Virus record (IMG/VR): IMGVR_UViG_3300020154_000019
Location: 1 to 21,560 of that record
Direction: 5' to 3' (one strand)
Origin: a virus
DNA: 21,560 bases
Shown: positions 423-18,772 of the stretch, one piece after another
Layout: each line of letters begins with the position of its first letter
How positions within the stretch are numbered: the first letter of the stretch is position 1
The notes under the pieces: model-generated
What the model was told of the DNA's origin: nothing
The model's database searches: none
What the model saw: only the letters and a program-made list of their open reading frames with translations
Program-made: the position numbers and the translations under genes

Positions 423-512
423 ATATCTAATTTGAATTTTCCCCAATATACGATAAGATTCCAAATTTGTTGCACTGAGATAGTAAAAAAGTGAATTTCT
501 AAGAAAATAGAG

Positions 513-520
513 TATTTATA
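513..520 (+). promoter_or_regulatory. TATTTATA element, putative phage promoter (site 1)
   Basis: TATTTATA preceded by G lies in the 147-bp divergent gap, 49 nt before the ATG at 570. It is one of eight copies of (G/C)TATTTAT found upstream of plus-strand genes. The promoter role is inferred from this recurrence and from the variable distance to the start codon. Its reverse complement, TATAAATA, equals the T4 late promoter core, so here alone the element could also serve the minus-strand gene starting at 422. Confidence 0.5.
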
Positions 521-569
521 AAAAAGTATAGCAAAACCAATTATTTAATTGCTTTAAAATCAAAGAAAA

Positions 570-2441
570 ATGGCAAAAAGAAACATAACTGAGTCTAATA
601 AAGAGCAGTTCTATCAAAGAATGAGACAATTGGCAGATATCCATCAGCCAATTAATGAAGGTCTAAAAAACTGCGATCTAATAGATTACAAGAGAGCCGG
701 TAACGGTTCAGCTTACGCTATCATCAAAGAGAATCACCACTATTACATCAAAGTATCGAACAAACAAGACAATACTTTGAATGTGGCCGATTTCACTTTC
801 ATTGGTGGTTTAGAAAACAAACTTAACTACCAGTACAAGAGTGTTTCTGAGGCTGATAAAAATAGAAACTTTTATTTGAAAAATATTAATGAAGGGATGG
901 CTAGTCTGAAAGCAGACAACGCTAAAACCAGATTAATAAACCTCAATGAAGGTAAGGCAATTAACGAAGAATTCGGTGAAGAAGAAAAACCGGAAGATGA
1001 AGTTGCCGTAGATGACGCAGGTGCTGAACCTGAATCTGACAGCGGTGATGAAAAATCAGATATAGATGCGGCTGCAGAAAAAATCGATGATTTAGACGCT
1101 GCTGCAAGCGCAGAAAAATCAGAACCTGCTGCGGATGCAAGTGCAGACCTTGGTGGTGCTGAAGATGCTGCTGCTGATTTAGGTGGTGCCGATGCAGGTG
1201 CTCCTGACATGGGTGGTGCTCCTGATGCAAGTGCTGATATGGGTGCTGATGCTGGTGCTGCTGATCTTGGTGGTGCTGAAGACGCTGCTGGTGATTTAGG
1301 TGGTGCTGATGCAGGTGCTGAAGATATGGGCGCAGATGCAGGGGAAGAAGGTGGTGACGCAGAAAAAGTTGAACTTAAAAAGATTGTTGGTAAAATTCAA
1401 CAACTTGCAAGTTCAGTTGAGCTAACTCCTGAAGACACTGTTGGACAATTGAAACAAATTCTTGCCGGATACAAAGGTGCAATCTCTGGATTGGATGATG
1501 TTGAAAAGAAAGAAGTTGCTAATAAAATAATGAAAGGTGAAGAAGGCGGCGAAGAATCTGGTGAAGGCGATATCGAAGGTGCTGAAGCAGGTCTGGGCGA
1601 CGATGCCGGTCTTGGTGATGAACAACCTAAACTTGGTGAAGAATCAATGTCAGGTTTCAAAGCACATATCCAAGAAATGGGATATGATCCTGCAAACACT
1701 CAAGCAATGTCTATGATGGAAATGGTTGGGATTATGAATTCCTACTTTAACAAAATGGACGGTAATGGTGAAGAAGCCGATGTACAAGGGTTGGCTGAAT
1801 ATATGAATGACGAAATAGTATCAGAACTTGCAGAATGTGGTTATGGTGACTATGCGACTCAAGCTAGAGGCTTAGGTGAAGGTTCTGCTCAATACGGTTC
1901 TGAAGAGCCTATGGCTATGGATAGTGGAAGCATGGGTGAAGATGGTGAAGGTGAAGACGAACTCGATGCAGAAGGTGGTGAAGAAGAACTTGGTGCTGAT
2001 GCTGGTATTGAAGGTGGTGAAGAAGAACTTGGTGCTGATGCTGGTATTGAAGGCGGTGAAGACGAAGCTGGCTTAGAAGATGTAACTGGTGAGATTCCTG
2101 CTGAAGAACCTGCAGGTGAAGAAGTTCCTCAATTCCCAACTGGTGCTCGTAACCCTGCTGAAATGCCTGCTGGCCCTCAATCAATCGCTCCTGCACACGA
2201 TGTGTTAGGTGCTGGTGTTCCGGGTGGTTCTGGTAAGAAAAGTTTGACTGTTGATTTGAACGCTAACGTGGTAAATCTTACAGTTAACGAAACACACGAA
2301 GGTAAACTTAGAAAAGTTGTTAAAAGAAGAATCGAAGAAAAGATGGGTTTGAAACAACCATTGTTAAATGAATCTAAAGATTCTGCTCTTTTGAAATTAA
2401 TTGACAAGTATATCGAAGACGAGATTAAGAAAAGATCATAA
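570..2441 (+). CDS. Acidic low-complexity protein, candidate prohead core or internal protein
   Basis: The protein has 623 residues and I do not recognise its family. Residues 1-135 look folded and hold several sites resembling the T4 prohead protease target ((I/L)-x-E before a small residue): ITE-S at 6-8, INE-G at 28-30 and 106-108, LNE-G at 125-127 and INE-E at 131-133. Residues about 136-265 and 440-540 are Gly/Ala/Asp/Glu repeats, including a 39-residue and a 13-residue tandem repeat. Between them are two less repetitive segments, around residues 270-320 and 350-430. The basic C-terminal about 65 residues resume a folded look and hold another LNE-S at 599-601. ATG at 570 follows an A-rich leader. 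It heads the run leading to terminase and the next gene starts 5 nt after its stop. The context and protease-type sites suggest a core or internal capsid protein; this is inference. Confidence 0.75.
   Translation: MAKRNITESNKEQFYQRMRQLADIHQPINEGLKNCDLIDYKRAGNGSAYAIIKENHHYYIKVSNKQDNTLNVADFTFIGGLENKLNYQYKSVSEADKNRNFYLKNINEGMASLKADNAKTRLINLNEGKAINEEFGEEEKPEDEVAVDDAGAEPESDSGDEKSDIDAAAEKIDDLDAAASAEKSEPAADASADLGGAEDAAADLGGADAGAPDMGGAPDASADMGADAGAADLGGAEDAAGDLGGADAGAEDMGADAGEEGGDAEKVELKKIVGKIQQLASSVELTPEDTVGQLKQILAGYKGAISGLDDVEKKEVANKIMKGEEGGEESGEGDIEGAEAGLGDDAGLGDEQPKLGEESMSGFKAHIQEMGYDPANTQAMSMMEMVGIMNSYFNKMDGNGEEADVQGLAEYMNDEIVSELAECGYGDYATQARGLGEGSAQYGSEEPMAMDSGSMGEDGEGEDELDAEGGEEELGADAGIEGGEEELGADAGIEGGEDEAGLEDVTGEIPAEEPAGEEVPQFPTGARNPAEMPAGPQSIAPAHDVLGAGVPGGSGKKSLTVDLNANVVNLTVNETHEGKLRKVVKRRIEEKMGLKQPLLNESKDSALLKLIDKYIEDEIKKRS
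1146..1350 (+). repeat. In-frame tandem repeat, 117-bp period
   Basis: Two copies of a 39-codon unit start at 1146 and 1263. The shared part reads DLGGAEDAA, A or G, then DLGGADAGA, P or E, then DMG; the second copy trails off near 1350. Codons differ at several positions between copies, so the duplication is not brand new. It forms an extended, negatively charged Gly/Ala/Asp tract in the protein starting at 570. Confidence 0.8.
1971..2072 (+). repeat. In-frame tandem repeat, 39-bp period
   Basis: Two adjacent units (1971-2009 and 2010-2048) both encode EGGEEELGADAGI and are identical at nearly every base, followed by a degenerate third unit (2049-2072). The near identity suggests a recent duplication or slippage event, and copy number may vary between relatives. 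Confidence 0.85.
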
Positions 2442-2446
2442 AGTAC

Positions 2447-2917
2447 ATGGATACTAATGGGTTAAAACTCATATATGTTCTCAAGAACGGACAGAACGTC
2501 AAAGGTGAGGGCATATATGAGTTTATATTTTCAACCAATCCTGATGACCTCAGTGAAAAGGCTAAGGATTTAAATTGGCATTTACCTGCTAAGGACAACG
2601 CCAATCCCCCTGATAAAGAAGATATCGATTTAGTAGTTGGTTTTAAGACTGATTACTTTAGATTGATTTGTCTTCATGAATTAAACGACAGAAAGTATCA
2701 GGACGGTTATTATAGAATTCACGCCATCGCTTTCGAAGACGAAGAGTACGAAAATGATTATGATATTGATTATGATGATGTTTTAGTTTTTCACTTTGGT
2801 GAATCATTCAAAGACGTGGAAAATAAACTTTACAAAAGGGAAGTCATTTTTCAAGCAAAGTCAAACGAATTTACTCACGCTAATAAGATAAAATTTAACA
2901 AACAAGTTGCAGAATAA
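2447..2917 (+). CDS. Acidic protein of unknown function
   Basis: The protein has 156 residues. The ATG at 2447 lies 5 nt after the stop of the preceding gene, so the two are surely co-transcribed and perhaps translationally coupled. It begins with a hydrophobic strand (LKLIYVL) and a GEGIYEFIFS segment, and has an acidic stretch of Asp, Glu and Tyr at about residues 112-128, followed by a VLVFHFGES strand. There is no signal peptide, membrane helix or catalytic motif that I can see. Its position between a putative core protein and the terminase suggests a small virion, assembly or packaging protein. I cannot name a function. Confidence 0.75.
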   Translation: MDTNGLKLIYVLKNGQNVKGEGIYEFIFSTNPDDLSEKAKDLNWHLPAKDNANPPDKEDIDLVVGFKTDYFRLICLHELNDRKYQDGYYRIHAIAFEDEEYENDYDIDYDDVLVFHFGESFKDVENKLYKREVIFQAKSNEFTHANKIKFNKQVAE

Positions 2918-2933
2918 AGTCACAATTAGAAAA

Positions 2934-3305
2934 ATGGCAGGGATGGATGTTGATCCTAAATATCTATTCTATATAAACCAATTTTCAAATTTTGCAGCCA
3001 AACACATCGGAATTAACACTCCAATCCACATCGTTCTAGTCGATAAATCCTATGACCAGTTAAGTTCAACTGGAATGTATTTCATCAACGAATATAAGAT
3101 GAAAATACTCTACGAAGGAAGGTCATTGGTTGACATTCTGAGAAGTATCGCCCACGAACTTCAGCATCAGAAACAAAACGAAGAAGACGAAATCCCGGCA
3201 AACCCTCAAAACATTGGTGGTCATCTTGAGAATGAAGCCAATATAATGTGTGGAATTCTTATCAAATTGTTCATCGACGAGCGAAAATTTCTTTACAAAT
3301 TATAA
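2934..3305 (+). CDS. Small zincin-like metallopeptidase (HExxH)
   Basis: The predicted protein has 123 residues. The core is a helix ending in HELQH (residues 74-78), the zinc-binding HExxH signature in which two His bind zinc and Glu activates water. About 20 residues downstream a second helix carries HLENEAN (97-103), where a Glu could be the third ligand as in gluzincins. Little more than the catalytic core is present: no signal peptide, no prodomain, no membrane helix. I start at the ATG at 2934, preceded by an A-rich TTAGAAAA leader, rather than a TTG at 2907 that overlaps the upstream gene. It lies directly before terminase. Phage targets could be a capsid or tail protein, or a host protein; the substrate is unknown. 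The metal-binding fold is a fair inference from motif spacing, but activity is not shown. Confidence 0.7.
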   Translation: MAGMDVDPKYLFYINQFSNFAAKHIGINTPIHIVLVDKSYDQLSSTGMYFINEYKMKILYEGRSLVDILRSIAHELQHQKQNEEDEIPANPQNIGGHLENEANIMCGILIKLFIDERKFLYKL

Positions 3306-3321
3306 AATTTTGTAAATCAAC

Positions 3322-3329
3322 TATTTATA
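3322..3329 (+). promoter_or_regulatory. TATTTATA element, putative phage promoter (site 2)
   Basis: TATTTATA preceded by C lies in the 40-bp gap between the zincin-like gene and terminase, 16 nt before the ATG at 3346. It matches the other copies base for base over TATTTATA. Confidence 0.5.
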
Positions 3330-3345
3330 GACATAATATTTTTAG

Positions 3346-5472
3346 ATGTCTATAGACGATCCTAATTTAAATGTTCCTATCAATGGTGAAGAACCATTAG
3401 ATGTTTTCATAAATGTTGATTTAGAAAAGAAAAAGGAAGAATCAAGAAGACTTGCCAAACTACTCCGTGAGCAAAGCAATAACACCGTAAGATACATCTC
3501 TACTCTTGGAGGTGAAACTAAAAAAGAAACTGATCTTACTAAAGAAGAAAAAACTGCTGAATTTTTAAGATGTGCTATTGATCCTATCTACTTCATTGAA
3601 ACCTACCTTACAATTTTTGACCAAACTAAAAATGCAATTGTACCATTCAAACTCTTTGAATTTCAAAAAGATTTAATTGAGTCTTATAGGACACATCGTT
3701 TCAACGTAGCCAATAAATATCGTCAGGCTGGAATTTCAACTACAACCTGTGCGTATATCACATGGTATGTAATGTTTACTGAACACGCTAAAGTTGCTGT
3801 TGTAGCAAACAAATTGGAAACTGCTCGTGATGAATTAATGTCTGATATCATCGACTTTATCGGTCAATGTCCTGAATATCTTCAACCTGATAATGAAGAT
3901 GATAGCGGTAAGAAAAAGAAAGTTTTAAAAGATGCTGCAGGTCACAAGAAATTTAATGGTGGTCGAGAAATTAAGGCTTTTGCACCAAGTACCCTTCGTG
4001 GTCTTACACCTACACTTATTTTTTGGGATGAAGCTGCATGGGCAGAACGTGGTGAAAAGTTTTGGGAATCTGCACGACCTACCTTACAAACTGGTGGTGG
4101 TGCCATCTTCGTATCTACACCTAACGGTCTTGATCCTGTATTTTATGAGGCTTTCACAAAAGCACCGGGTAATAAATTCAATGCAATTGAATTATGGTGG
4201 TATAACGATCCCCGTTATGTCAGAAACAAGGAAACTGGTTTAAGTGATTTGGAATGGGTAAAAGGGGCAGGAACAACTAATGAATTCCGAATTAAAGACG
4301 AAGATTTCTCTAAACAAAAAAGAAAGCAATTAGTCGATGATGGTTTCAAACCTACAAGTACTTGGTTTGAAGAAAACAAATTGACATACAACGGAAATGA
4401 ACGTCAGTTAGCGCAAGAAATGCTGTGCTCTTTCCTTGGCTCAGGTGACAACTTCGTTGGTGAAGACAATATAATGTATGCCAAAGAAAACACTGTCAAA
4501 GAACCAATTAGAAAAGAATACACCGACCATAACATGTGGATTTGGGAAGACCCCATACCAGATGTCATATATGTAATGGGCGTGGATGCTTGTAAAGGAA
4601 ATTCAGACGATAGTGCCAGTATTTCAATTTTAAAAGTTAATATCCGAGAAGAAATTGTCACTTCTACTAATAGTTTAGGTGTTACAAAACAAAGAAAACG
4701 AAAAAGACGACTATCTGAACAGGTAGCCGAATACCACGGGAAGAAGACACCTCAAGAACTAGCCCATATCGCATTCCATTACGGTAGATTATATAACACC
4801 GCATACGCTGTTGTCGATATTACAGGTGGTTACGGTAGTGGTACTGTAGATAAAATGAAGGAATTGGGTTATGACAATTTCTATTACAGTGAGATTGGTA
4901 ATAAAGGAATGAAGGACATGCTCAGTGGCTATGCAAAAAACATGGCTATTGAAAAGCAGGGTCAATACAAAGAAGTTGAGAAACACCCCGGTTTGGTTAT
5001 AACGGGTCAAAACAGACCTGCGATGCTTTTAGAACTTGAACGTGCACTGCGCATGAGGGATTTAACCGTTCGTTCCTCTAGGATGGTTAAAGAATTGGAA
5101 ACTTTCCAAACAGATAAAAATCCCAATAAACTAGCCGATCACACCCGTACTACTCATGACGATGCCATTTTCGGTACAACAATAGCCCTATACGCTGTCG
5201 CATATGATTTAGACGTGGCACAGGAGTCAATTAGTAAAACCAAGGCTCTTTTAGAGGCTATGACCAAAGTGAATAATAATTCAGGTGCAATTAGCCGAGT
5301 TATCAAACAACCAAATCAAGAAAGTTATTACATGAGAGGTGCAGACCCACGGGCTGCTAATAGTTGGCTTTTCAGCGATAAGCAAACATACATTCAGCAT
5401 TTAATGCAATCTCAAGGCATATCGAGAGACGATGCTGAAAGACAGTACTATGAATCAAAGCCATTTAGGTAA
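3346..5472 (+). CDS. terL: Terminase large subunit, T4 gp17-like packaging ATPase and nuclease
   Basis: The protein has 708 residues, longer than T4 gp17 (610). It is the motor that cuts concatemeric DNA and pumps it through the portal into the prohead. The ATPase half shows a deviant Walker A, K-Y-R-Q-A-G-I-S-T (124-132), with Lys at its first position instead of the usual GK(S/T), as in many terminases. Walker B is LIFWDEAAW (Asp228, Glu229), followed by the coupling motif FVSTPNG (256-261). The RNase H-like nuclease half shows its acidic residues in GVDACKG (Asp414), VVDITGG (Asp491) and THDDAIFG (Asp605, Asp606). Residues 449-456 are a very basic run, plausibly DNA-contacting. The ATG at 3346 follows site 2 of the promoter-like element. 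The portal gene follows 56 bp later, the usual partner. Identification is very secure. Confidence 0.96.
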   Translation: MSIDDPNLNVPINGEEPLDVFINVDLEKKKEESRRLAKLLREQSNNTVRYISTLGGETKKETDLTKEEKTAEFLRCAIDPIYFIETYLTIFDQTKNAIVPFKLFEFQKDLIESYRTHRFNVANKYRQAGISTTTCAYITWYVMFTEHAKVAVVANKLETARDELMSDIIDFIGQCPEYLQPDNEDDSGKKKKVLKDAAGHKKFNGGREIKAFAPSTLRGLTPTLIFWDEAAWAERGEKFWESARPTLQTGGGAIFVSTPNGLDPVFYEAFTKAPGNKFNAIELWWYNDPRYVRNKETGLSDLEWVKGAGTTNEFRIKDEDFSKQKRKQLVDDGFKPTSTWFEENKLTYNGNERQLAQEMLCSFLGSGDNFVGEDNIMYAKENTVKEPIRKEYTDHNMWIWEDPIPDVIYVMGVDACKGNSDDSASISILKVNIREEIVTSTNSLGVTKQRKRKRRLSEQVAEYHGKKTPQELAHIAFHYGRLYNTAYAVVDITGGYGSGTVDKMKELGYDNFYYSEIGNKGMKDMLSGYAKNMAIEKQGQYKEVEKHPGLVITGQNRPAMLLELERALRMRDLTVRSSRMVKELETFQTDKNPNKLADHTRTTHDDAIFGTTIALYAVAYDLDVAQESISKTKALLEAMTKVNNNSGAISRVIKQPNQESYYMRGADPRAANSWLFSDKQTYIQHLMQSQGISRDDAERQYYESKPFR

Positions 5473-5498
5473 AATCAAAAAAATGGTTGGATTCTACG

Positions 5499-5506
5499 TA
5501 TTTATA
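5499..5506 (+). promoter_or_regulatory. TATTTATA element, putative phage promoter (site 3)
   Basis: TATTTATA preceded by G lies in the 56-bp terminase-portal gap, 22 nt before the ATG at 5529. Confidence 0.5.
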
Positions 5507-5528
5507 ATTATAGACTCACATTGAATTA

Positions 5529-7550: not shown

Positions 7551-7561
7551 TATTTAAATAG

Positions 7562-7569
7562 TATTTATA
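7562..7569 (+). promoter_or_regulatory. TATTTATA element, putative phage promoter (site 4)
   Basis: TATTTATA preceded by G lies in the 33-bp gap after the portal gene, 14 nt before the ATG at 7584. The gap holds little else. Confidence 0.5.
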
Positions 7570-7583
7570 AAAAACTCTATAAA

Positions 7584-8396
7584 ATGAGCAGAATTAATTT
7601 TGGTATTTTAAAAGCAGGTTTGTTTAACAAATTGACCGAATCTTTAGATAAAAATGATGAATTGAACAATTCTGATTACATTTCTTTTTTTGAAACTGTT
7701 AAAAACGATCCGCTTTTACAGGTAGAAAACATCATCTACAAAAATCTCTTGAATAAGCATATTAGTGCATCTGCAGAGAATTCAGCGGTTAGATATATCG
7801 ACGAAAATTTAAATCTTTTTAAAATGTTTACTAAAGCGGATTTCAAAGCATCTCACGCTAAACTAGGAATTTTCGAACCTAAAATACATAAAAATTTTAA
7901 ACCATCTAATTCAAAAGTCTTAAATGCTATTGATACATTATTATACGAATCATTGGCTTTTGACGCTAAAGAAATTCCCAATGTAGACTCTCTCCATGAA
8001 GCGTATGAAATTGTACTAGAGCATATCAAACTGCCGAAAGGTGAAACAGGTAAATCAAAACTTTCAAATTTGAAAGTTTCGTTAAAGGAAACTATAGTTA
8101 AAAACGCAATTAAGAAATTCAACGAGAAATATTCTCATTTGAATGAAGACGATAAAAAATTACTATCAGTACTAGTGAATCCAAATAATCAAGCCAAAAA
8201 AGAACTTTTTGAATCATTGAAAAATGAAACCTATGAAAAGTTGCAACGATCTTTAGAATCCGCTTCTCAAGCGGTTCAAGACAGAATTAAGAATTCAATG
8301 CTTAAAATTGAGAGAATGGAATTCAATGAAAAATCGTCTGCTAAAGATATGGTTCAACTCCACAATCTAAACAAGAACGGTTTCTCAACCAAATAA
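7584..8396 (+). CDS. Unknown protein after portal, possible prohead core component
   Basis: The protein has 270 residues. It is rich in Lys, Glu, Asn and Leu and looks almost entirely helical, with no signal peptide or membrane segment. I recognise no domain. It carries an LTE-S near residue 17-19, which fits the T4-type prohead protease target, and a weaker LNE-D near residue 190. In T4 the slot between portal (gene 20) and protease (gene 21) is filled by the small core genes 67 and 68, so a core or scaffold accessory role is plausible by position only. The gene has its own promoter-like element and a short A-rich leader. Its end overlaps the end of the convergent peptidoglycan hydrolase gene by 12 bp, so the two transcription units meet tail to tail with no room for a separate terminator. 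Confidence 0.7.
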   Translation: MSRINFGILKAGLFNKLTESLDKNDELNNSDYISFFETVKNDPLLQVENIIYKNLLNKHISASAENSAVRYIDENLNLFKMFTKADFKASHAKLGIFEPKIHKNFKPSNSKVLNAIDTLLYESLAFDAKEIPNVDSLHEAYEIVLEHIKLPKGETGKSKLSNLKVSLKETIVKNAIKKFNEKYSHLNEDDKKLLSVLVNPNNQAKKELFESLKNETYEKLQRSLESASQAVQDRIKNSMLKIERMEFNEKSSAKDMVQLHNLNKNGFSTK

Positions 8397-9698: not shown

Positions 9699-9703
9699 AA
9701 AAT

Positions 9704-12700
9704 TTACGGACTTATTTTTAATAATGAATCTGGTAATACCGGGTCAATTGCACTTGGATTCGGAACGTATTCTGAACCTTTCGTACCATTCCCGATTCTA
9801 TTTGAATTTGGAGAAGGTACTATTGTCGGTGATCCCGTTATATCTTGGGTAATTCTGTTCTGTGCGCCTAAGAAGGCCGATACAGTGGCGATCTCTGTTA
9901 CGATGGGTGCTGGATAGGCTAACATTCTAACCCCTTTAAAAGAGGTTTCCATTGTGTTTGGTCGTATCTCATGAGTTACCTCAATTATCATGTATGCACC
10001 AGAGAACATGGGTATACCTTCTAATTGGAAATATTGAGTTGGTTGAATCATTGCATCACCAAGCATTTTCACAGTACAGGTATAACTTCGACCCTCATAA
10101 ACATTGAACAAATTTTGAGCCTTCCCTACAGGAGCAGATTCACTCTGATCAGCCGCGATTTGAGATAAAATCACTAAACTTTCATTTGTGTCTTTGTGTT
10201 CAACAGTATCTAAGATTATATCTTTGAAATATGATTGATTTTGAGCACCGTAACGGACTCTGAACGCTCGTACTGCATTTACCCCTGAGTTGTTGTTATT
10301 GAAATCTACAGGTAAACTACTATTTTCGTCTAAGTTGAAACTATCGTCTTTATAATCACTGTTAGCATCATTCAATTGGCTTGAACTACCACCAACATAC
10401 ATACATACGAACATAGGTCTTTGAGTCGGCTCAAGATTATCTATAGTTTCAAATATTCTCTCCCATTCATCATCCTTGAATGCCATGAAATTTTGTAAGG
10501 GGAAGAATTCGAAATTGTTATGGGCCAGAAGTCGAGATATCATTGTGAATACGCTAATATCATAATCGTCAGCCGATTCGATAAGAGGTCTGAAATCTAT
10601 AATACATTTATCACTAATGTCGTTAAAGGCTCTATCAACAAACACAAAACTATCGAATAATGATCCACCAAAACGATTATTTAGGATATAACCGTCATCA
10701 GCAAACATTCCACCAGCAAGCCATTTGTCATAAATGGATTTAAATGAATAATAACATTGATTTTTAACATCATCATCGTTTAGTCTGGATTGTGACTTCG
10801 CTGCTGTCTCAACTCTATCGACTTCAACTCTAGTTAGATTGCTTTCAAGTTTTCTAAAGAAAGTGGAAAAAAATGTGTTATTAATCTGAGCATGATCAGC
10901 GTCAAGTGCATTTATTTGTGGTAGAGTTAAGAATGTCGTTTGATTATTATCTGTAAATGCATTTTCCCCGAAAACTATCAACCCCTTTTCCAACATCAGA
11001 GTGTTTTCAAATTGTGTTTCTCTAAACGATGCAGAATTAAATGCCAAATCATAACCCTTGTATTTATCGCTATTAATAACTTGCGCATAAGCACCGTCAA
11101 CAGTAGCATCTAAAGGTTGCTTACTGATATTCTCGTTAATGATAACTTTTAATGACGATATTAATCTATCGAAGTCTGATTGTATATCATCATCTCCAAC
11201 ACCATTTACAAAATTTAAAAATTGAGTAATTAAAACGGTTTTATCGGCTTCGGTTAGATTAGGAATCAGTTCATCTACAATGAAATCATGTTCATTACTT
11301 TTAGCGGGGTTCTCGCTGATGAATAAATAACGTAATTTTTCAGTGCCTTGCATAGCCTGACTAATTAAACCAGACTGATGTTTAAGGGTTAAATTAAAAA
11401 ATTCAGCGAATAATTGAGTTGCTTGATTTTCAGCATTGACATTACCGTTAGCGTAATGGTAGATATAACCACCTAAGTAAATCAATACAAACTGTGGTAA
11501 TTTTAAAGCCGAAGGGATTCCCCAAAAAACATTTTGGGCAATACTATTTTGTGTGTAATTACTAGCTATAAAAAATGCTTTGGCAAATTCATCATATACA
11601 CTATCAGGCTTATTTAATATCACATTTATAGGAGCATCAAACAACGTATATAAAACTCTATAACGTTCGAGCATTGAAGACGTAATATTATCAATTTCAT
11701 CTAAAGCAATAGGTTGTAAATAATTTGTTTTAAAATCATCACCTCTTTCAGCATCATTGTAAAAAATCACGTTGTCAGAAGTAAACTTTCTAGGCTTGTT
11801 TTTCTTATCAAAAATTTCAATATAACTTTTATTTGAATCTAAAAAAACATTGATTGGATCACTAGTGTCACCCACAGAAATTCGCTCCGTTAAAACGCTA
11901 CCATCAACAATTTTGATTGAATCATTATCAGCCACATCAGCGAATGCTTTATTTTTGTAGATATTTACCCCATTAATCGTGAGTTGATTAGGGTTGGATA
12001 GACCAATGTTTCTACGTGTCAATTCTTGATAAAATAAATTCGGGTCAGCAGCAAAACGTTTGGCTAGTTCTTTAATAGCATTTGTAGTCTTAGGATTGTC
12101 CAGAGAATTAGTGATGTTTAATACTTCAGCATCTAAAATTAGCTGACGAATTGTGTCGTAGTTAATACCTGCTTTATTGCTTCGTTTAAACAAACCAAAA
12201 AAAGTCTTCTGTTCATAGAATGAAGAAGCGAAAAAATATTGACTATAAGCAATAAAACGATCATGAAATATCTGAAAAAACTGATCAATACCCGGATCAT
12301 CTTTTAGACCAAAATATGGTGAATTTGTATTCACTTCATTACCTAAAAGAGAATCTATTGGACTCAACGGAATCCATTTCTTATTACCGCTTTCGTCCTC
12401 TTGTTGTCTTAAATCAATAATTTTTTCTTGTTGTTTTAGCGTGATAAACGCATTTACAAAATTCTCAACCATCCTAACTTCTGGAAACTCAGGGTTAATA
12501 GGTAGTCTTCCCGGATATGCCTTTGAGCGTTTTTTTGTGTTATTTTCAACTATTTCTTCAGTATAAACAGGAAAAGGATAAATCTTTTTAACGTCACTAT
12601 TTTTTAAAGTATGACTTAATGCGTCGAAAATTTTCGATTTATTGGCTTCATGATGGCCTTCAGCCTGCCTAGCCGTTTCTTTCAATACATCGAAAAATTT

Positions 12701-14209
12701 ATCCACATCATCACAGATGATTCTGAATATATTTCCTATGGTCGGTATGAATCCACTTTCATCTGAGCCGCTAACTTTCTGTTTAAATTGTTGTAATTGC
12801 GAATCTACCAATGCATCCACTTTATCCTTCAATTTAAGATTGATGTCATCGACTTGTTTAGTGTATGATCTCTGTTGAACAATTATTTTTTGTGTAAAAT
12901 CACTCACATCCATTCCGACGTATTTCTCGTTTTCAATTGTGAATATTCTGAAGTTTTCAGAAATATCTTCAGACCCAATAGTTGAATTTGAGTATTGATT
13001 AGCCTTGGAAATTAAAGCAGTCTTAATATTTCTTAACCTATCTTTAACATATGTTTCTAAAGAGACATCATTCCCCACCTTAAAAGATAATAAAAGTCTC
13101 ACGGACTTGTTGCGATTCATAATCGGAACGTTATCAGTTGATTTTGCGACTGATGATGTCTTTAAAACTTTATCATATTTGGCTATTTTGTTAGTTACGT
13201 TTTCAAATTGAACAGGGTCAGAGTTGGCAGGTGATGAATTGTTCGCATCTTCACTTTGAGCCTGAGTTACCGAAATTGACGAAGTTTTATTCTCCATGAA
13301 TACATAGCCCTTATTGACCAAAGAAGTATCAGCATCGCCTGCAGTAAGATTTAGAAACGTGTTCGGAAAGCCATCGAGATCAGTAAAGACCGATGTTAAC
13401 CCATCTGATTTATTTTTAAGTTTTTCTCTAGTTGATACGTCTGCAGACTTGTCATTTATCTCACCTATTTGTTCGTAAAGTTTTTTACTTTTTATAATGA
13501 AATCTCTAAGAGTATTCGTGGGAGTAGTCACGTCATTTGAGCCACTGGTTGTACCTGTAGATTGAAGTAAATACGGTGCTATTTCAGCATATTTAAACAA
13601 TACGTCTGTCAACGGAGCGTAAGTTCGTCCTACAAAACTGGCAGTAATTAGGAAATTGCCAGTGTTTCCTTCAAATCTGGTATTTTGCTTTACTAGATGG
13701 AGATCGTAGGTGATTTGACCTCCGTAAATTCCTTTAACCGTCAATTGAAATAATGGCGGTGGAAACGAGTGCAAAACAGAATATGGACTGTCTTTACCTG
13801 AATTGAATAATGACAAACCTCTCGTGTCTGTGAACTCAATTTCGACCTGTGGTATATAACTGCTATTAACTGTGATTCTGATACTAGTTATCCCAAAACC
13901 TTCGTACTGCGGTTCTGTATTTCCATCACTAGAAACACCTCCCCAACGACTAGTAAATCTCTGAGTTTCGGGGTTATATCCCAACATGCTAACGGTCAGA
14001 TTATCGAAAACTTTTTCAACATTTCCGTTACTAACAGTACCTCTTTTATTCAACACCGTACTTTCTCTTCTGCTTGCTAGAAGTTCAACGAAGATGAACA
14101 TTTTAGAATAATCTGGAACCCCATTTCTTCTGTTGTTATTTATTTCGTTGGGATCGATAACTCTAATACTCATAGTTCCCTGATAATCTGATTTAAAATA
14201 AATAGTCAT
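9704..14209 (-). CDS. Giant baseplate hub-like structural protein
   Basis: The protein has 1501 residues, the largest gene here. The N-terminal about 215 residues are beta-rich (TSIRITVNSSYIPQVEIEF, LFQLTVKGIYGG, FLITASFVGRTY) and look like a tail or hub domain. The middle is long, charged and unrecognised. The C-terminal part has strands typical of hub proteins of the gp27/late-control-D type: FRVRYGAQNQSYF, SYTCTVKMLGDAMIQP (ending near residue 1390), QYFQLEGIPMFSGAY and IIEVTHEIRPN followed by SFKGVRM. A Pro/Ser/Asn/Gly tail of about 50 residues ends it. The ATG at 14209 is chosen; a second Met lies at residue 13. It is followed after 5 nt by the peptidoglycan hydrolase, as expected for a hub that carries a muralytic enzyme. 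The hub label is inference from the C-terminal pattern and context; the tail role is likely, the exact position less so. Confidence 0.65.
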   Translation of the reverse strand: MTIYFKSDYQGTMSIRVIDPNEINNNRRNGVPDYSKMFIFVELLASRRESTVLNKRGTVSNGNVEKVFDNLTVSMLGYNPETQRFTSRWGGVSSDGNTEPQYEGFGITSIRITVNSSYIPQVEIEFTDTRGLSLFNSGKDSPYSVLHSFPPPLFQLTVKGIYGGQITYDLHLVKQNTRFEGNTGNFLITASFVGRTYAPLTDVLFKYAEIAPYLLQSTGTTSGSNDVTTPTNTLRDFIIKSKKLYEQIGEINDKSADVSTREKLKNKSDGLTSVFTDLDGFPNTFLNLTAGDADTSLVNKGYVFMENKTSSISVTQAQSEDANNSSPANSDPVQFENVTNKIAKYDKVLKTSSVAKSTDNVPIMNRNKSVRLLLSFKVGNDVSLETYVKDRLRNIKTALISKANQYSNSTIGSEDISENFRIFTIENEKYVGMDVSDFTQKIIVQQRSYTKQVDDINLKLKDKVDALVDSQLQQFKQKVSGSDESGFIPTIGNIFRIICDDVDKFFDVLKETARQAEGHHEANKSKIFDALSHTLKNSDVKKIYPFPVYTEEIVENNTKKRSKAYPGRLPINPEFPEVRMVENFVNAFITLKQQEKIIDLRQQEDESGNKKWIPLSPIDSLLGNEVNTNSPYFGLKDDPGIDQFFQIFHDRFIAYSQYFFASSFYEQKTFFGLFKRSNKAGINYDTIRQLILDAEVLNITNSLDNPKTTNAIKELAKRFAADPNLFYQELTRRNIGLSNPNQLTINGVNIYKNKAFADVADNDSIKIVDGSVLTERISVGDTSDPINVFLDSNKSYIEIFDKKNKPRKFTSDNVIFYNDAERGDDFKTNYLQPIALDEIDNITSSMLERYRVLYTLFDAPINVILNKPDSVYDEFAKAFFIASNYTQNSIAQNVFWGIPSALKLPQFVLIYLGGYIYHYANGNVNAENQATQLFAEFFNLTLKHQSGLISQAMQGTEKLRYLFISENPAKSNEHDFIVDELIPNLTEADKTVLITQFLNFVNGVGDDDIQSDFDRLISSLKVIINENISKQPLDATVDGAYAQVINSDKYKGYDLAFNSASFRETQFENTLMLEKGLIVFGENAFTDNNQTTFLTLPQINALDADHAQINNTFFSTFFRKLESNLTRVEVDRVETAAKSQSRLNDDDVKNQCYYSFKSIYDKWLAGGMFADDGYILNNRFGGSLFDSFVFVDRAFNDISDKCIIDFRPLIESADDYDISVFTMISRLLAHNNFEFFPLQNFMAFKDDEWERIFETIDNLEPTQRPMFVCMYVGGSSSQLNDANSDYKDDSFNLDENSSLPVDFNNNNSGVNAVRAFRVRYGAQNQSYFKDIILDTVEHKDTNESLVILSQIAADQSESAPVGKAQNLFNVYEGRSYTCTVKMLGDAMIQPTQYFQLEGIPMFSGAYMIIEVTHEIRPNTMETSFKGVRMLAYPAPIVTEIATVSAFLGAQNRITQDITGSPTIVPSPNSNRIGNGTKGSEYVPNPSAIDPVLPDSLLKISP

Positions 14210-14245
14210 GTTTTCAAATTGTTGGGCGTTAATTGGGCTTAAAAC

Positions 14246-14253
14246 TATTTATT
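14246..14253 (+). promoter_or_regulatory. TATTTATT element inside a palindrome, divergent promoter region (site 5)
   Basis: TATTTATT preceded by C lies 12 nt before the ATG at 14266, in the 56-bp divergent gap between the hub-like gene and the membrane protein gene. It overlaps a perfect 12-bp palindrome, TTTATTAATAAA, at 14248-14259, so a similar sequence is presented to the minus strand. A shared bidirectional promoter is plausible. Confidence 0.5.
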
Positions 14254-14265
14254 AATAAAGAAAAC

Positions 14266-14682
14266 ATGCTTACGGTTTACACAATTTTACTCCAAATTTC
14301 AGATGAAGCAATGAACGGTTTTACCCAAGCCAGTGAGACTAGTGTGGTCAATGCACTTCTAGTATCAATATGCCTTATTTTGGTGGGTGTGATCATATTT
14401 TTGTTCAAAAAATATGAGGAAAAGATTAAAGATAATAAGGAATTGCAGATTAAAGCCCTCTATCGAGAGGAACAACGTAACAAGGAATTTTTAGAGTCAG
14501 AAAAGGAAACTTTGAAGATTCTTAACGGTGTAACGAACGTATTGGAAATGATAGAAAAGGTTAACGATCAAGACACCACTAACATCATCAATAAAATAAG
14601 TGAAGAAGCGGATAAAATTAGAACTCAAATAGATGTTCTGGAACGCACGATATTGGACAAAATCAAACAAACCAAAAAATAA
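14266..14682 (+). CDS. One-helix membrane protein with coiled coil, holin-like candidate
   Basis: The predicted protein has 138 residues. I start at the ATG at 14266 (MLTVYTILLQ), because a TTG at 14233 would run through the promoter-like element. Residues about 27-47 form one clear transmembrane helix (VVNALLVSICLILVGVIIFLF), followed by a basic KKYEEK edge and then about 85 residues of charged heptad-like sequence, a probable coiled coil. A short N-terminal segment, one membrane span and a long charged cytoplasmic tail resemble the layout of BhlA/UviB-type holin-like proteins, though this one is longer. It sits divergent from the operon with the peptidoglycan hydrolase, which fits a lysis role. 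A structural or prohead-membrane anchor role is an alternative given that the protease gene follows 15 bp later. The membrane topology is well supported; the holin role is a hypothesis. Confidence 0.7.
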   Translation: MLTVYTILLQISDEAMNGFTQASETSVVNALLVSICLILVGVIIFLFKKYEEKIKDNKELQIKALYREEQRNKEFLESEKETLKILNGVTNVLEMIEKVNDQDTTNIINKISEEADKIRTQIDVLERTILDKIKQTKK

Positions 14683-14685
14683 AAC

Positions 14686-14693
14686 TATTTATT
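14686..14693 (+). promoter_or_regulatory. TATTTATT element, putative phage promoter (site 6)
   Basis: TATTTATT preceded by C lies in the 15-bp gap before the prohead protease gene and ends only 4 nt from its ATG at 14698. It shares the 13-mer AAAACTATTTATT with site 5. A promoter here would produce a leaderless or nearly leaderless mRNA. Confidence 0.45.
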
Positions 14694-14697
14694 CAAT

Positions 14698-15432
14698 ATG
14701 AGTAAAATATTAAGAAGGGGTGAAACTGGTTTTGGTATTCTTATAGAAGAAGATGCGGGTTATATCGCGTCACACGTAAGTGATTTCAATAAGAACTTGT
14801 TCGAAAACGTTTTGAACGAAAGTTTTACAACATCTTCTTTAAAAGGTGGTAAAATTTTGGTGGATTGTATTCTTCAAAAATACGGAGTTGAAAACCGTAA
14901 CGGAAGGATATATCCTCAAGAGGTATTGTACCCACAGGTTCAAAAATATATGGAATCTGTTAAGGATAATTCTGCAGTAAGTGAAGCCGATCATCCTGAA
15001 AGTTCAGTAGTGTCTTTGAAAAATATTTCACACATTATTAAAGATATGTGGTGGGGTCAGGGTGACAATGCTAATACTCTTTACGGTAAATTAGAAATCA
15101 TAACATCCCCTGCTTACATTAATCATGGTCAGGTATGTATGATTGGAGATAAAATAGTTGAATACCTTCGCAGAGGAATTAAGTTAGGTATTTCAAGTAG
15201 AGGGGTAGGGTCGCTTCAGGAAGTTAAAGGCAAAAACATCGTTCAGAAAGACTTTGAATTGATATGTTTTGACCTTGTTGCTTCTCCAAGTACGCCCGGA
15301 GCATACTTATTCCCCAAATTTAATGATGAAAACGGTGCTGATGCTGTTCAGGAAATGAACATCGTCACTCCAAAACCAATGCTGAAAGAACAGAAATTAA
15401 TTTCGGCATTAGACAATTTTTTAAATTCTTAA
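14698..15432 (+). CDS. gp21: Prohead core protease, T4 gp21-like serine peptidase
   Basis: The protein has 244 residues (T4 gp21 has 212). This enzyme matures the prohead: it cleaves scaffold and core proteins to peptides and trims the capsid protein, usually after (I/L/V)-x-Glu. The fold signature is clear: ENRNGRIYP (65-73), SEADHPE (95-101) with catalytic His99, LGISSRGVGS (163-172) with the nucleophile among Ser166/Ser167, and DFELICFDLVASPSTPGAYL (185-204) with Asp192 a likely third member. Residues 39-42 read LNES, itself a plausible self-cleavage site that would remove a 41-residue propeptide. The C-terminal tail after about 208 is not conserved-looking and may be removed on activation. 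The gene is followed by scaffold and capsid genes exactly as in T4. Identification is very secure. Confidence 0.95.
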   Translation: MSKILRRGETGFGILIEEDAGYIASHVSDFNKNLFENVLNESFTTSSLKGGKILVDCILQKYGVENRNGRIYPQEVLYPQVQKYMESVKDNSAVSEADHPESSVVSLKNISHIIKDMWWGQGDNANTLYGKLEIITSPAYINHGQVCMIGDKIVEYLRRGIKLGISSRGVGSLQEVKGKNIVQKDFELICFDLVASPSTPGAYLFPKFNDENGADAVQEMNIVTPKPMLKEQKLISALDNFLNS

Positions 15433-15436
15433 AAGT

Positions 15437-15460
15437 CTAATTAGAAAAATTTTTAATTAG
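15437..15460 (+). other. AT-rich inverted repeat after the protease gene
   Basis: CTAATTA and TAATTAG form 7-bp arms around an interior A5/T5 run, 5 nt after the protease stop. It could fold into a weak hairpin and modulate read-through or mRNA stability. No T-tract directly follows, so I do not call it a terminator. Confidence 0.3.
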
Positions 15461-15496
15461 AAATATGATTAAAATGTCTTTTTTGGGAAAACAATG

Positions 15497-15504
15497 TATT
15501 TATT
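15497..15504 (+). promoter_or_regulatory. TATTTATT element, putative phage promoter (site 7)
   Basis: TATTTATT preceded by G lies in the 99-bp gap before the scaffold gene, 27 nt before the ATG at 15532. No such element lies between scaffold and capsid genes, so this one would serve both. Confidence 0.5.
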
Positions 15505-15531
15505 ATAAAAAAACATAAAGTTAATTACAAT

Positions 15532-16992
15532 ATGTCTGAGGTAAAGAAAACAGTTATTGAAGAAGCACTTATCGAATACGATATGGTGTTAAAAGAAGCT
15601 CAAGAAATAGCTAAGGAAGAATTGGCTAATTCTATGCCAGACAAATTTGAAAATTTAGTAGAACAACATCTTAAAAATAAAAATAAGATAAACGAATCTG
15701 ACGAACAACAAGAGCCAACTATGGCAGATGAAAAAGAGTCGGTAGAAGAGTCCTTTCAGGACAACAATCAAGAGATGTCTGAACCCGCTAAAGTCGATAT
15801 GACCCAAGCATCAATTGACGAAATCGAAGAAGCCTATGATAATTTATCATTGGATGAAATTGAGATCGTAAGAGATGGTGAAGGTTATGACGATGATATT
15901 GAGGTGAAAGATATCGAGAAGGAAATTGATTCCATGAGCGAAATGGTCGATGAACTAGACGCGATGGATCAACCAGTAGTTGCTGAAGACAGCAATGATC
16001 CTTTTGGTAAACTTAAACAAATGCACGAAGAAATGTCTAAAATGTTAGAAGCAATCGAATCAGAAAAATCTGCACCAATTGCAGAAGGCGTAAAGGATGG
16101 TCACGTACTCGCTACCAAAGGCGGTAAACTTGCAAAAGCTGCACCTGTAAAACAGATCGCAGAAGATGAAGTAGCCGAAGGAGTGAAGGATGGTCACGTA
16201 CTTGCCAAGAAAGGCGGTAAACTCGCGAAGGCTGCACCTGTAAAACAGATCGCAGAAGACGAAGTTGCAGAAGGCGTAAAAGACGGTCATGTGCTTGCTA
16301 AAAAAGGTGGCAAACTTGCAAAAGCAGCCCCGGTTAAAGCAATCGCAGAAGACGAAGAAATCGTGAACGAGGAACAAGTTGAAGAAAGTCATGGACACGC
16401 ATTGTCTCATAACAAGCACACTGGCCAAGAATCACAGCCAAGCATAGATGGTGCGAAAAGCTATGCTAAAGACAAAGTTAGACTTGCACTTCAGAAAGAA
16501 TCTGAGGACAAAGCTAAAAAGATTTCTGCTCTCTTGAAGGAACAAAGGGAACTTACCAAGAAGCTAAACTCAATGAAGAAAGAAAAATCTGATTTGGTTG
16601 GCATCAACGAAGGTTTCAAAAAGACCCTCAATGAGATGAAGGATCAAATGAAAAAAATGGCTGTATTCAACACGAACATTGCCCATGTAAACAACCTGTT
16701 GGTAAATGAAGAACTCGTTTTGACAAAAGACGAAAAAATTTACATCATCAACAAGTTTAAAAATGTGGCAAGCATCACTGAATCTGATACAACTCACAAA
16801 ACGCTTTTAGAAGAGTTTAAAACATCAAAGAAAAAACTTGATGAATCTATCGAAAAGAAAATAACTGAGTCAGTTGGTGGTGGATCATCTGCTAATATTC
16901 TTGAATCAAAAATCGTCGAAAAAACTGCTTTCGAAAAAAGCATCGACAAAATGAAGAATATTATAAACTACACTGAAAGACAGCGTAGATAA
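15532..16992 (+). CDS. gp22: Prohead scaffold protein, T4 gp22-like, with internal peptide repeats
   Basis: The protein has 486 residues; T4 gp22 has 269. The scaffold forms the core around which the capsid shell assembles and is then cut to peptides by the gp21-type protease. It sits between protease and capsid genes, the T4 position. Residues 1-180 are helical and strongly acidic. Residues 183-275 are three 31-residue repeats with a lysine-rich centre. Residues about 305-370 and 420-486 are charged coiled-coil-like sequence, as expected for scaffolds. Protease-type sites are abundant: INE-S (53-55), IAE at 183-185, 209-211, 240-242 and 271-273, VAE at 214-216 and 245-247, and near the C-terminus ITE-S and ILE-S. 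The extra length over T4 comes partly from the repeat block. The scaffold call rests on gene order and composition more than on residue identity. Confidence 0.85.
   Translation: MSEVKKTVIEEALIEYDMVLKEAQEIAKEELANSMPDKFENLVEQHLKNKNKINESDEQQEPTMADEKESVEESFQDNNQEMSEPAKVDMTQASIDEIEEAYDNLSLDEIEIVRDGEGYDDDIEVKDIEKEIDSMSEMVDELDAMDQPVVAEDSNDPFGKLKQMHEEMSKMLEAIESEKSAPIAEGVKDGHVLATKGGKLAKAAPVKQIAEDEVAEGVKDGHVLAKKGGKLAKAAPVKQIAEDEVAEGVKDGHVLAKKGGKLAKAAPVKAIAEDEEIVNEEQVEESHGHALSHNKHTGQESQPSIDGAKSYAKDKVRLALQKESEDKAKKISALLKEQRELTKKLNSMKKEKSDLVGINEGFKKTLNEMKDQMKKMAVFNTNIAHVNNLLVNEELVLTKDEKIYIINKFKNVASITESDTTHKTLLEEFKTSKKKLDESIEKKITESVGGGSSANILESKIVEKTAFEKSIDKMKNIINYTERQRR
16078..16356 (+). repeat. Three tandem 93-bp in-frame repeats in the scaffold gene
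   Basis: Units run 16078-16170, 16171-16263 and 16264-16356. Each encodes (I/V)AEGVKDGHVLA, then (T/K)KGGKLAKAAPVK, then (Q/A)IAEDE. Only about four residues differ among the copies, while many third codon positions differ. That pattern suggests the protein sequence is being kept by selection rather than by a very recent duplication. Confidence 0.95.
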
Positions 16993-17024
16993 TAATAATT
17001 ATAAAAACAAACAAAAACACAAAA

Positions 17025-18680
17025 ATGGGTTTTTTAATGGAAAGTGGCGATGTAGGTAACATCGGCTTAAAACAACTAAGAGATACACGTCAAGTAGTAA
17101 CTCAACGTTGGGAAAAAATTGGTCTTCTTGAAGGTCTTGAAGGCAACGTGAAAGAAAACTGCGCTCAATTATATGAGAATCAGTTATCACACATGATCAA
17201 CGAATCTACGGATTCTGCATCAAATGGTTCATTCGAAACTGTAGCATTCCCTGTAATCAGAAGAGTGTTCTCGAAATTGCTTGCTAACGATCTAGTATCT
17301 GTTCAGGCTCTTAACTTACCTATCGGTAAATTGTTCTTCATTAACCCGAAGATTTCTACCCGTAGAGCAAATAACCGTCATTCATCACCAGATGGTGCAT
17401 ATAGCAACGCTGCTACTTTAGCTGCTTCTGCTCGTACTCAATTTGAGTCTAAGAACCTTTACGATTCTTATTATGCAACTTCATACGGTGACGAAGGTAC
17501 TTCGCTTTTCGACCGTTCAAAAGGTGCTTCAACTGTAGTTACTGGTACTTGTACCGTATCTCCTGCATATGCATCTGGCGATAAAGTTGTAAGCGCAACT
17601 GTAGCTGGTTTCACTACTACCTCACAAGGTAAACTTGTTGGCCCTGCAGGTGTTCCTATGGACACTGAATCATTCCTTCAGTCATTGAAGATTTATTCAA
17701 ACAGAACCTTCGCAACTGTAGCTCCTTACACCTCTGAGAACATCGCAGCAGGTAGCCCGATCCCTTACAACATTAAGACTCAAACCTACGGTAGAGCAGT
17801 TGTAAACACTTCAGGCCAGTTAGTGTTGAACATTGACTTAACTTATCCGGGTGCAAATGGTTATGGTTCTGCTTTAACAGCAGCAACTCCTACCTTCTTC
17901 TTCGAATACAGAACTTATTCTGATTTGGAAGAAGATTCAGAAATGGCTGAAGTAACTTTCGGTCTTGATGAAGTAACCGTGTCTGTTGAAACTCGTAAAA
18001 TGAGAGCACAGTGGACTCCTGAACTTGCGCAAGACGTAAGTGCATTCCATAACATTGACGCAGAATCTGAATTAACAGCATTGTTGTCAGAAACTATGGC
18101 TGCTGAAATCGACCGTGAAATCCTTCGTGATTTGCGTAGAGGTGCAGCTTGGGTGAAGCGTTGGGACTATAACGGTCTTCGTAAACAATCTACTACGTAC
18201 TACGGTACTCAGAAGGATTGGAACCAAACTTTGATCACTACAATCAACCAGATTAGTGCTCAAATCCATAAGTCAACCCTTCGTGGTGGTGCTTCATGGT
18301 TGGTTGTATCACCTGAAATCTCTGCCGTGTTTGATGACTTGGAATACTTCCACGTATCTAATGCATCTCCTGAGCAAGATAAGTATAACATGGGTATCGA
18401 AAAAATCGGTAGCCTTAGCGGAAGATATCAAGTGTTCCGTGACCCTTATGCACCTGCCAACACTTTGTTGATTGGTCACAGAGGTTCATCAATCCTTGAG
18501 TCAGGTTACATCTACGCACCTTACGTGCCGATGCAATTAACTCCGGTTATGTACAACCCGTTCGACTTCAAGCCGATCCGTGGTATCATGACTCGTTATG
18601 CTAAGAAAATGGTATTGAACAGATACTTCGGTAGAGTTCTTTGCGATGGTCTTACATATTTCTCTGACCCGCTTCAGTAG
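17025..18680 (+). CDS. gp23: Major capsid protein, T4 gp23-like
   Basis: The protein has 551 residues (T4 gp23 has 521). It is the HK97-fold shell protein. Recognisable blocks are the capsid N-arm region FPVIRRVFSKLLANDLVSVQ (about 75-94), and the most diagnostic stretch, about residues 308-365: FGLDEVTVSVETRKMRAQWT, then ELAQDVSAFHNIDAESELT, then AAEIDREILRDLRR, which parallels the matching T4 segment closely. Residues 58-60 are INE followed by Ser61, at nearly the spot where T4 gp23 is cut (after residue 65), so the mature protein probably starts at Ser61. A Thr/Ser/Gly-rich segment at about 160-270 is more variable and likely corresponds to a surface insertion. The gene lies 32 bp after scaffold in an A-rich leader with no own promoter-like element, and ends before a strong terminator. 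Identification is very secure. Confidence 0.97.
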   Translation: MGFLMESGDVGNIGLKQLRDTRQVVTQRWEKIGLLEGLEGNVKENCAQLYENQLSHMINESTDSASNGSFETVAFPVIRRVFSKLLANDLVSVQALNLPIGKLFFINPKISTRRANNRHSSPDGAYSNAATLAASARTQFESKNLYDSYYATSYGDEGTSLFDRSKGASTVVTGTCTVSPAYASGDKVVSATVAGFTTTSQGKLVGPAGVPMDTESFLQSLKIYSNRTFATVAPYTSENIAAGSPIPYNIKTQTYGRAVVNTSGQLVLNIDLTYPGANGYGSALTAATPTFFFEYRTYSDLEEDSEMAEVTFGLDEVTVSVETRKMRAQWTPELAQDVSAFHNIDAESELTALLSETMAAEIDREILRDLRRGAAWVKRWDYNGLRKQSTTYYGTQKDWNQTLITTINQISAQIHKSTLRGGASWLVVSPEISAVFDDLEYFHVSNASPEQDKYNMGIEKIGSLSGRYQVFRDPYAPANTLLIGHRGSSILESGYIYAPYVPMQLTPVMYNPFDFKPIRGIMTRYAKKMVLNRYFGRVLCDGLTYFSDPLQ

Positions 18681-18702
18681 TCTTAATTGATTAGAATAGT
18701 AT

Positions 18703-18735
18703 AAGGGGTTGCAAAATTTGCAGCCCCTTTTTTTA
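18703..18735 (+). terminator. Intrinsic terminator after the capsid gene
   Basis: AAGGGGTTGCAAA and TTTGCAGCCCCTT pair as a near-perfect stem (one G-U pair, very short loop), followed directly by a run of seven T. It starts 23 nt after the capsid stop. GC pairs in this stem stand out against the AT-rich surroundings. It should separate the abundant capsid mRNA from the tail tube gene. Confidence 0.88.
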
Positions 18736-18764
18736 TTCCTTCTGACCAAATTTAAATTTTAAAG

Positions 18765-18772
18765 TATTTATG
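18765..18772 (+). promoter_or_regulatory. TATTTATG element, putative phage promoter (site 8)
   Basis: TATTTATG preceded by G lies just downstream of the capsid terminator and 34 nt before the tail tube ATG at 18807. A new promoter is needed here because the terminator would stop transcription from upstream, which supports the promoter reading of this element family. Confidence 0.55.

Follow-up and report, generated by a model that had tools for sequence, protein, structure and literature searches.

A recurring (G/C)TATTTAT element upstream of virion genes as a candidate late promoter of giant Bacteroidota-type phages

What is the function of a TATTTAT sequence, preceded by G or C, that recurs in the short gaps upstream of genes in a 21,560-base fragment of a virus record (IMG/VR record IMGVR_UViG_3300020154_000019; hereafter the window), and what reads it? 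The window carries a T4-like head and tail cluster, with genes for terminase, portal, prohead protease, gp23-type capsid protein and tail tube, and a first-pass annotation had proposed that the element is a phage-specific late promoter, perhaps recognised by a phage sigma factor. Judged on sequence comparisons, the best-supported reading is a promoter element conserved across a large group of giant Bacteroidota-type phages.

Placement of the element in the window

The eight sites listed in the first-pass annotation lie where it had placed them (Table 1), and the first four are exact copies of TATTTATA, as it had claimed. In the intergenic DNA of the window, (G/C)TATTTAT occurs eight times on the plus strand and never on the minus strand, all eight in the sense orientation. 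Enrichment over shuffled gaps had been set beforehand as the refuting test and left the proposal unrefuted: when these gaps were dinucleotide-shuffled 5,000 times, the mean was 0.094 copies and the maximum 2. Across the whole window there are ten copies against 2.6 expected, with none of 100 shuffles giving ten; bare TATTTAT is in modest excess (15 against 8.6 expected, equalled in 3 of 100 shuffles), which argues that the G or C at position -1 and the placement matter. The spacing to the ATG, previously given as 4 to 49 nucleotides (nt) counted from the octamer, becomes 5 to 50 nt when counted from the end of TATTTAT, and ATG 14266 is the start of the gene that follows site 5, which corrects the one assigned before. 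The strong terminator reported ahead of site 8 is present as a hairpin. The major capsid gene (phrog_138), at 17025, has no site of its own and is probably also served by site 7.

Table 1. Copies of the element and associated features in the window
Feature	Sequence	Position	Strand	Context
Site 1	GTATTTATA	512..520	+	50 nt before ATG 570, virion-region gene of unknown function
Site 2	CTATTTATA	3321..3329	+	17 nt before ATG 3346, terminase large subunit (phrog_2)
Site 3	GTATTTATA	5498..5506	+	23 nt before ATG 5529, portal (phrog_213)
Site 4	GTATTTATA	7561..7569	+	15 nt before ATG 7584
Site 9	CTATTTAT	14198..14205	-	24 nt before the most likely hub start, 14173
Site 5	CTATTTATT	14245..14253	+	13 nt before ATG 14266; paired divergently with the 14198 copy
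Site 6	CTATTTATT	14685..14693	+	5 nt before ATG 14698, head maturation protease (phrog_207)
Site 7	GTATTTATT	15496..15504	+	28 nt before ATG 15532, scaffold-like gene (by position only)
Site 8	GTATTTATG	18764..18772	+	35 nt before ATG 18807, tail tube (phrog_4542)
Stray copy	GTATTTAT	11060..11067	+	antisense within the hub gene; probably chance
Hub gene (most likely start)		9704..14173	-	called open reading frame 9704-14209
Intrinsic-terminator-like hairpin		18703..18729	+	12 pairs and T-run, 3' of the major capsid gene, before site 8

The copy at 11061, taken earlier as the only other one preceded by G or C, is a stray; a minus-strand copy at 14198 had been overlooked. Its position bears on the start of the hub gene, so named in the first-pass annotation, which matched no PHROGs or Pfam family at the thresholds used. 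Among the matches listed, four of 30 hub relatives (L011, L016, L073 and L080) align their own residue 1 with hub residue 13, so the predicted start is most likely 14173, the called start being 12 codons too far upstream. With this start the 14198 copy becomes a ninth upstream site, and nine of the ten window copies are sense and upstream of genes, 11061 being the exception. The back-to-back pair that the ninth site forms with site 5 is also present in a large relative, G001, and A is found at +11 in eight of the nine upstream copies.

Conservation in related phages

Searches of viral contigs with the terminase and the capsid protein yielded 99 loci, many on contigs of 200-371 kb, which together with the window made 100 sequences, of which 70 were left after near-duplicates had been removed by shared 25-mers. 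Gene calls were ATG-only, with a minimum of at least 80 amino acids in the 70 loci and at least 60 in the tiled contigs described below. With no motif supplied, GTATTTAT ranked first among 8-mers for over-representation upstream of genes in the 70 loci, present in 262 of 723 regions against 9.1 expected. In the tandem gaps of these loci the G/C-preceded element occurs 209 times in the sense and 7 times in the antisense orientation; the corresponding counts in coding DNA (1.06 Mb) are 107 and 85. Chance occurrence in AT-rich DNA is rejected on the shuffles, this enrichment and the placement.

When the sites are aligned on TATTTAT, A stands at position -2 and G or C at position -1, three A-rich positions follow downstream (+10 to +12), and a weak T-rich stretch lies upstream (-19 to -13); between -18 and -13 the T fraction of individual genomes is 0.39-0.56, compared with 0.27-0.46 farther out. 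Each of eight genomes, that of Flavobacterium phage immuto among them, shows the fixed A at +11 and +12 when analysed by itself (A 0.80-0.95 at +11); G008 was omitted from the pooled flank table and is shown separately. The distance to the ATG ranges from 0 to 60 nt, 60 being the set limit, with a mode of 14-17 nt. That the AA keeps its place relative to the element rather than to the start codon speaks for a promoter and its start site. One-mismatch variants of GTATTTATA are almost confined to G>C at -1 and to the last base, and those in which T4 or T5 of the core is replaced by A hardly occur. The possibility that the T-tract represents terminator tails is unsupported, as neither upstream folding energy nor G+C content is raised at T-rich sites; the C-T-tract signal is partly due to one orthologous promoter, that of the scaffold gene.

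Conservation of the site was then scored gene by gene among testable orthologs, leaving out those at contig edges. The site is kept in 10/10 orthologs of gene 570, 31/31 of gene 14266, 49/52 of the hub gene, 47/50 of the scaffold-position gene, 34/37 of gene 7584, 49/55 of the protease gene, 10/13 of the terminase gene (in one case 42 nt within the gene as called), 13/22 of the portal gene and the single testable ortholog of the tail tube gene (1/1). Orthologs of the major capsid protein (MCP) gene (1/47), the endolysin gene (2/37) and gene 2447 (1/12) mostly have no site. This footprint implies that the units are conserved and that the capsid gene is read from the preceding unit or from another signal.

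To extend the comparison beyond these loci, we tiled seven large relatives together with 150 kb of immuto, called their genes and counted a site as upstream when it lay within 100 nt of a gene. (G/C)TATTTAT was upstream in 59/94 cases in G001, 57/92 in G012, 51/106 in G010, 38/144 in G008, 78/117 in G009, 39/83 in G014, 43/76 in G013 and 15/32 in immuto. For a control of equal composition, (G/C)TTATTAT, the counts were 4/40, 6/56, 10/84, 21/143, 2/58, 3/36, 2/65 and 4/37 in the same order, below the element in every genome. In immuto the copy before the portal gene, CTATTTATA, is at 120552 of MW353177.

A gp55-like sigma factor and other promoter classes

T4 late promoters are read by gp55 with gp33 and gp45, and a gp55-like sigma gene was something the first-pass annotation had suggested looking for. 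A candidate, family A, was first found through a weak gp55 match in immuto (phrog_234, E = 0.008) and a relative in G002; this sigma-2 protein is encoded by 14 of 14 large relatives and by immuto (as immuto136C_152), and no sigma gene lies within the window fragment itself. In the phage collection family A is confined to four immuto records, LR756508 and Microcystis phage Mel-JY01, and 432 stretches of viral contigs encode relatives, of which the best 80 of 432 were kept. The predicted structure of one member (pLDDT, a per-residue confidence score, 82) aligns with T4 gp55 chain 7d7c_F over 113 residues with Z 9.8 and a root-mean-square deviation of 3.7, sigma factors making up most of the 50 matches listed, and hhalign against a 17-sequence gp55 alignment gives a probability of 90 (E = 1.7e-6) over the sigma-2 part. 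The protein is about 250 amino acids long and has an extra C-terminal part, which nothing matched clearly; its assignment as sigma-4 found no support, the best Z being 5.7, to non-sigma chains. Four members carry an insertion of about 40 residues ahead of a conserved S-Y motif (L178:1168-2034, L179:1114-1983, L180:1492-2355 and L181:1081-1971).

We also searched for polymerases and clamps. A phage multisubunit (Rpb1-type) polymerase was rejected, PF04997 matching 0/16 records while its control matched 14/14; PF00940, for single-subunit polymerases, matched nothing at all and is thus uninformative, and PF00476, of DNA polymerase type, matched only in immuto. Models of a gp45-type clamp (PF02916 and phrog_223) matched only T4, apart from a weak phrog_223 match in G011 (E = 0.0013), although diverged clamps may escape them, and the bacterial beta clamp PF00712 matched 0/16 records, where distant clamps could likewise escape.

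Seven further contigs with diverged family A copies were tiled. TATTTAT was upstream in 40/110 cases in G015, 56/126 in G016, 27/119 in G018, 9/44 in G021, 10/45 in G023 and 15/47 in G024. The top 8-mer of both G018 and G021 is CTATTTAT, which is also among the 8-mers listed for G023; G016 prefers ATATTTAT. In the first 50 kb of Mel-JY01, TATTTAT was upstream in 12/55 cases, mostly preceded by A.

The T4 late core is TATAAATA at -13 to -6, according to an excerpt of PMC1524935, and the T4 late promoter is described in an excerpt of PMC2988020 as having no -35 element; in the phages studied here, the weak T-rich stretch was all that was seen in that direction. The first-pass annotation had noted that the element is the exact reverse complement of the T4 core, which is correct as letters but misleading as to meaning: in the same orientation TATTTATA and TATAAATA are identical at six of eight positions, and only the central AA is changed to TT here. 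The reverse orientation, with the element firing backwards, is rejected because it would transcribe away from the gene and because of the sense bias in tandem gaps. When 70-115 kb of T4 was taken as a control in the same test, TATAAATA was upstream in 10/17 cases and TATTTATA in 4/17. In both systems a -10-type element of short length lies near virion genes of either strand, in the direction of transcription, and a gp55-like sigma-2 protein is encoded, here a distant match. They differ in the strong G/C at -1 and the fixed AA downstream in these phages, in the length and C-terminal part of the sigma factor, and in that no gp45-type clamp was clearly found. Aeromonas phage Aeh1, with late element CTAAATA and a diverged gp55 (as excerpted from PMC1524935), provides a precedent for an altered late element alongside a diverged gp55, but Aeh1 alters the first bases, whereas here the first three are kept and the centre is altered.

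Other promoter classes are found in the same phages. ECF (extracytoplasmic function) sigma promoters of the AAC...CGTA type are exemplified by those of Bacillus SigW, and a class of this shape, AAC-N14-18-CGTATAA, is concentrated at 160-300 kb of G001, where only two strict sites of the late class occur. It was upstream in 34/42 cases in G001, 15/20 in G012, 31/43 in G009, 7/13 in G014 and 3/7 in G013, and was not upstream in G010 (0/4), G008 (0/3) or immuto (0/3). It goes with phage ECF-like sigmas and differs from the late element in sequence and in the genes served: genes with the late class, the ECF-type class or both number 59, 34 and 1 in G001, 56, 15 and 1 in G012, and 78, 31 and 0 in G009, so that the two are near-exclusive. 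The genes behind it are mostly other ones (L100-L118 in G001, L119-L131 in G012, L354-L368 in G009). Host-type boxes are also present, TATATTTG in G010 (25 against 3.7 expected), TACCTTTG in G015 (21 against 0.3 expected) and TTG..TATATTTAGG in immuto, where long conserved TTG..TATATTTAGGTATCAATAATTAAAAC sequences stand ahead of many small genes at about 60-77 kb of MW353177 (L133). The G001 contig (L100-L118) further contains the palindrome CCAGTACTGG 44 times and CAGTACTG 82 times, many of them seemingly inside genes; they occur 0-1 and 0-6 times, respectively, in seven other genomes compared.

As for the host, the isolate nearest to the window is a Flavobacterium phage (25.9% terminase identity), and the capsid protein was found in bacterial genomes only in two contigs of metagenome-assembled genomes, labelled Bacteroidota or Bacteroidales. 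The host-type boxes of the relatives agree with these two lines, and together they support, without proving, Bacteroidota hosts for the window. Two neighbouring features of the window were also recorded: the scaffold-position protein (15532-16992) has three tandem EGVKDGHVLA(K/T)KGGKLAKAAPVK repeats in translation, and a GIY-YIG homing endonuclease gene (19300-19938) lies directly 3' of the tail tube gene.

Interpretation and implications

We consider it probable that a diverged gp55-type system acts on the host core polymerase and that the sites are the -10 elements of its late promoters. Each site would have the form A(G/C)TATTTATA-nn-AAA, and transcripts would begin close to the conserved A's, some 12 nt past the first T. 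A phage-encoded gp55-like sigma would direct host core RNA polymerase to the element and would thereby open the virion-gene transcription units late, and host-type boxes or, in some relatives, the phage ECF-sigma class would serve other, probably earlier, genes. The phage-specific late promoter and phage sigma proposed at the outset thus gain support from the strand bias, the flanks, the ortholog conservation, the scarcity of sites in the part of G001 outside the virion genes and the gp55-like sigma of every large relative, while lateness and recognition by this sigma are what we infer from them.

Several observations weigh against this account. The loci are mutually related, so that their counts are not independent, and in the AT-rich G005, G008 and G010 the whole-genome counts are not clearly above a reversed-pattern control; in G008 and G010 it is placement alone, not the whole-genome count, that beats the control. 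Among the distant carriers G020 is weak (TATTTAT upstream in 11/64 cases), in 50 kb of LR756508, a record encoding a family A relative, there is no enrichment (2/18), and A is preferred at -1 in Mel-JY01 and G016, so G/C is not universal. The family A model fails to find T4 gp55, and phrog_234 matches weakly (E = 0.001-0.03) in 3 of 10 family A members scanned and in none of the others. The Z of 9.8 is not far above that for other sigma factors, chance alone can bring helical folds to Z values of such size, and Foldseek returned no strong hit, the top one being a sigma factor complex (E = 0.21). Finally, G014 has the ECF-type class with no Sigma70_r2 match over the cut-off, possibly because the contig is partial.

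Could the host primary sigma (sigma-ABfr type) read the element, as a weak TAnnTTTG variant and perhaps with a phage activator? Excerpts of PMC6847099 give the Bacteroidota primary-sigma promoter as TTTG at -33 and TAnnTTTG at -7, with which the element shares T-12, A-11, the T-rich centre and a similar distance to the start, and these phages do use host-type boxes in other places. The nearly invariant TTTG is absent, however, positions 5-8 being TATA, and the host-type sequences make up a class apart, with long flanks of their own, which in immuto stand mostly before a different, small-gene region; the explanation is improbable. The first-pass annotation was accordingly right that the element does not fit the host box, yet other gene classes in the phage group do use such boxes. 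An ECF-like phage sigma (family B, Sigma70_r2 + r4) in place of family A appears quite improbable. Sigmas of this kind recognise short -10 elements, and Sigma70_r2 (PF04542) is over the Pfam cut-off in 11 of the 16 records searched. Against this, no match was obtained in immuto or G010 and the one in G008 is weak, and all three, admittedly a small sample, have the late class; it is the AAC-N-CGTATAA class that vanishes along with family B, G014 excepted.

That the element acts at the mRNA level, signalling translation or marking a site of RNA processing within the 5' leader, seems very improbable. Bacteroidota are described in excerpts of PMC6847099 as having no Shine-Dalgarno leaders and using A-rich upstream positions, which together with the commonest distance to the ATG would suit such a role, but the AA stays fixed to the motif over the whole range of distances, operon-internal genes such as those for MCP and endolysin mostly have no element, site 8 follows a terminator, and back-to-back pairs occur in divergent gaps. 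Going beyond the gp55-type late promoter, we tentatively suggest that these phages may have their own sigma cascade, acting on the host polymerase: non-virion genes would use host-type boxes or an ECF sigma (AAC-N-CGTATAA), and virion genes would then be served by a clamp-independent, diverged gp55-type sigma that reads A(G/C)TATTTATAnnAAA. If so, their late transcription would be uncoupled from the gp45 clamp that links that of T4 to replication. The motif and the system were not among the matches listed in a literature search of open-licence papers; an excerpt of PMC7824862 already states that group 2 jumbo phages, Bacteroidetes ones included, use phage sigmas.

The element would supply a promoter code that can be read in a large group of giant phages, most of them uncultured. 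It would allow late units to be marked, gene starts to be corrected (as for the hub gene here) and sigma factors to be paired with promoter classes from sequence alone. Beside T4, it may offer a second natural experiment on the choice of -10 element by a gp55-type sigma and on the need of late transcription for a sliding clamp.

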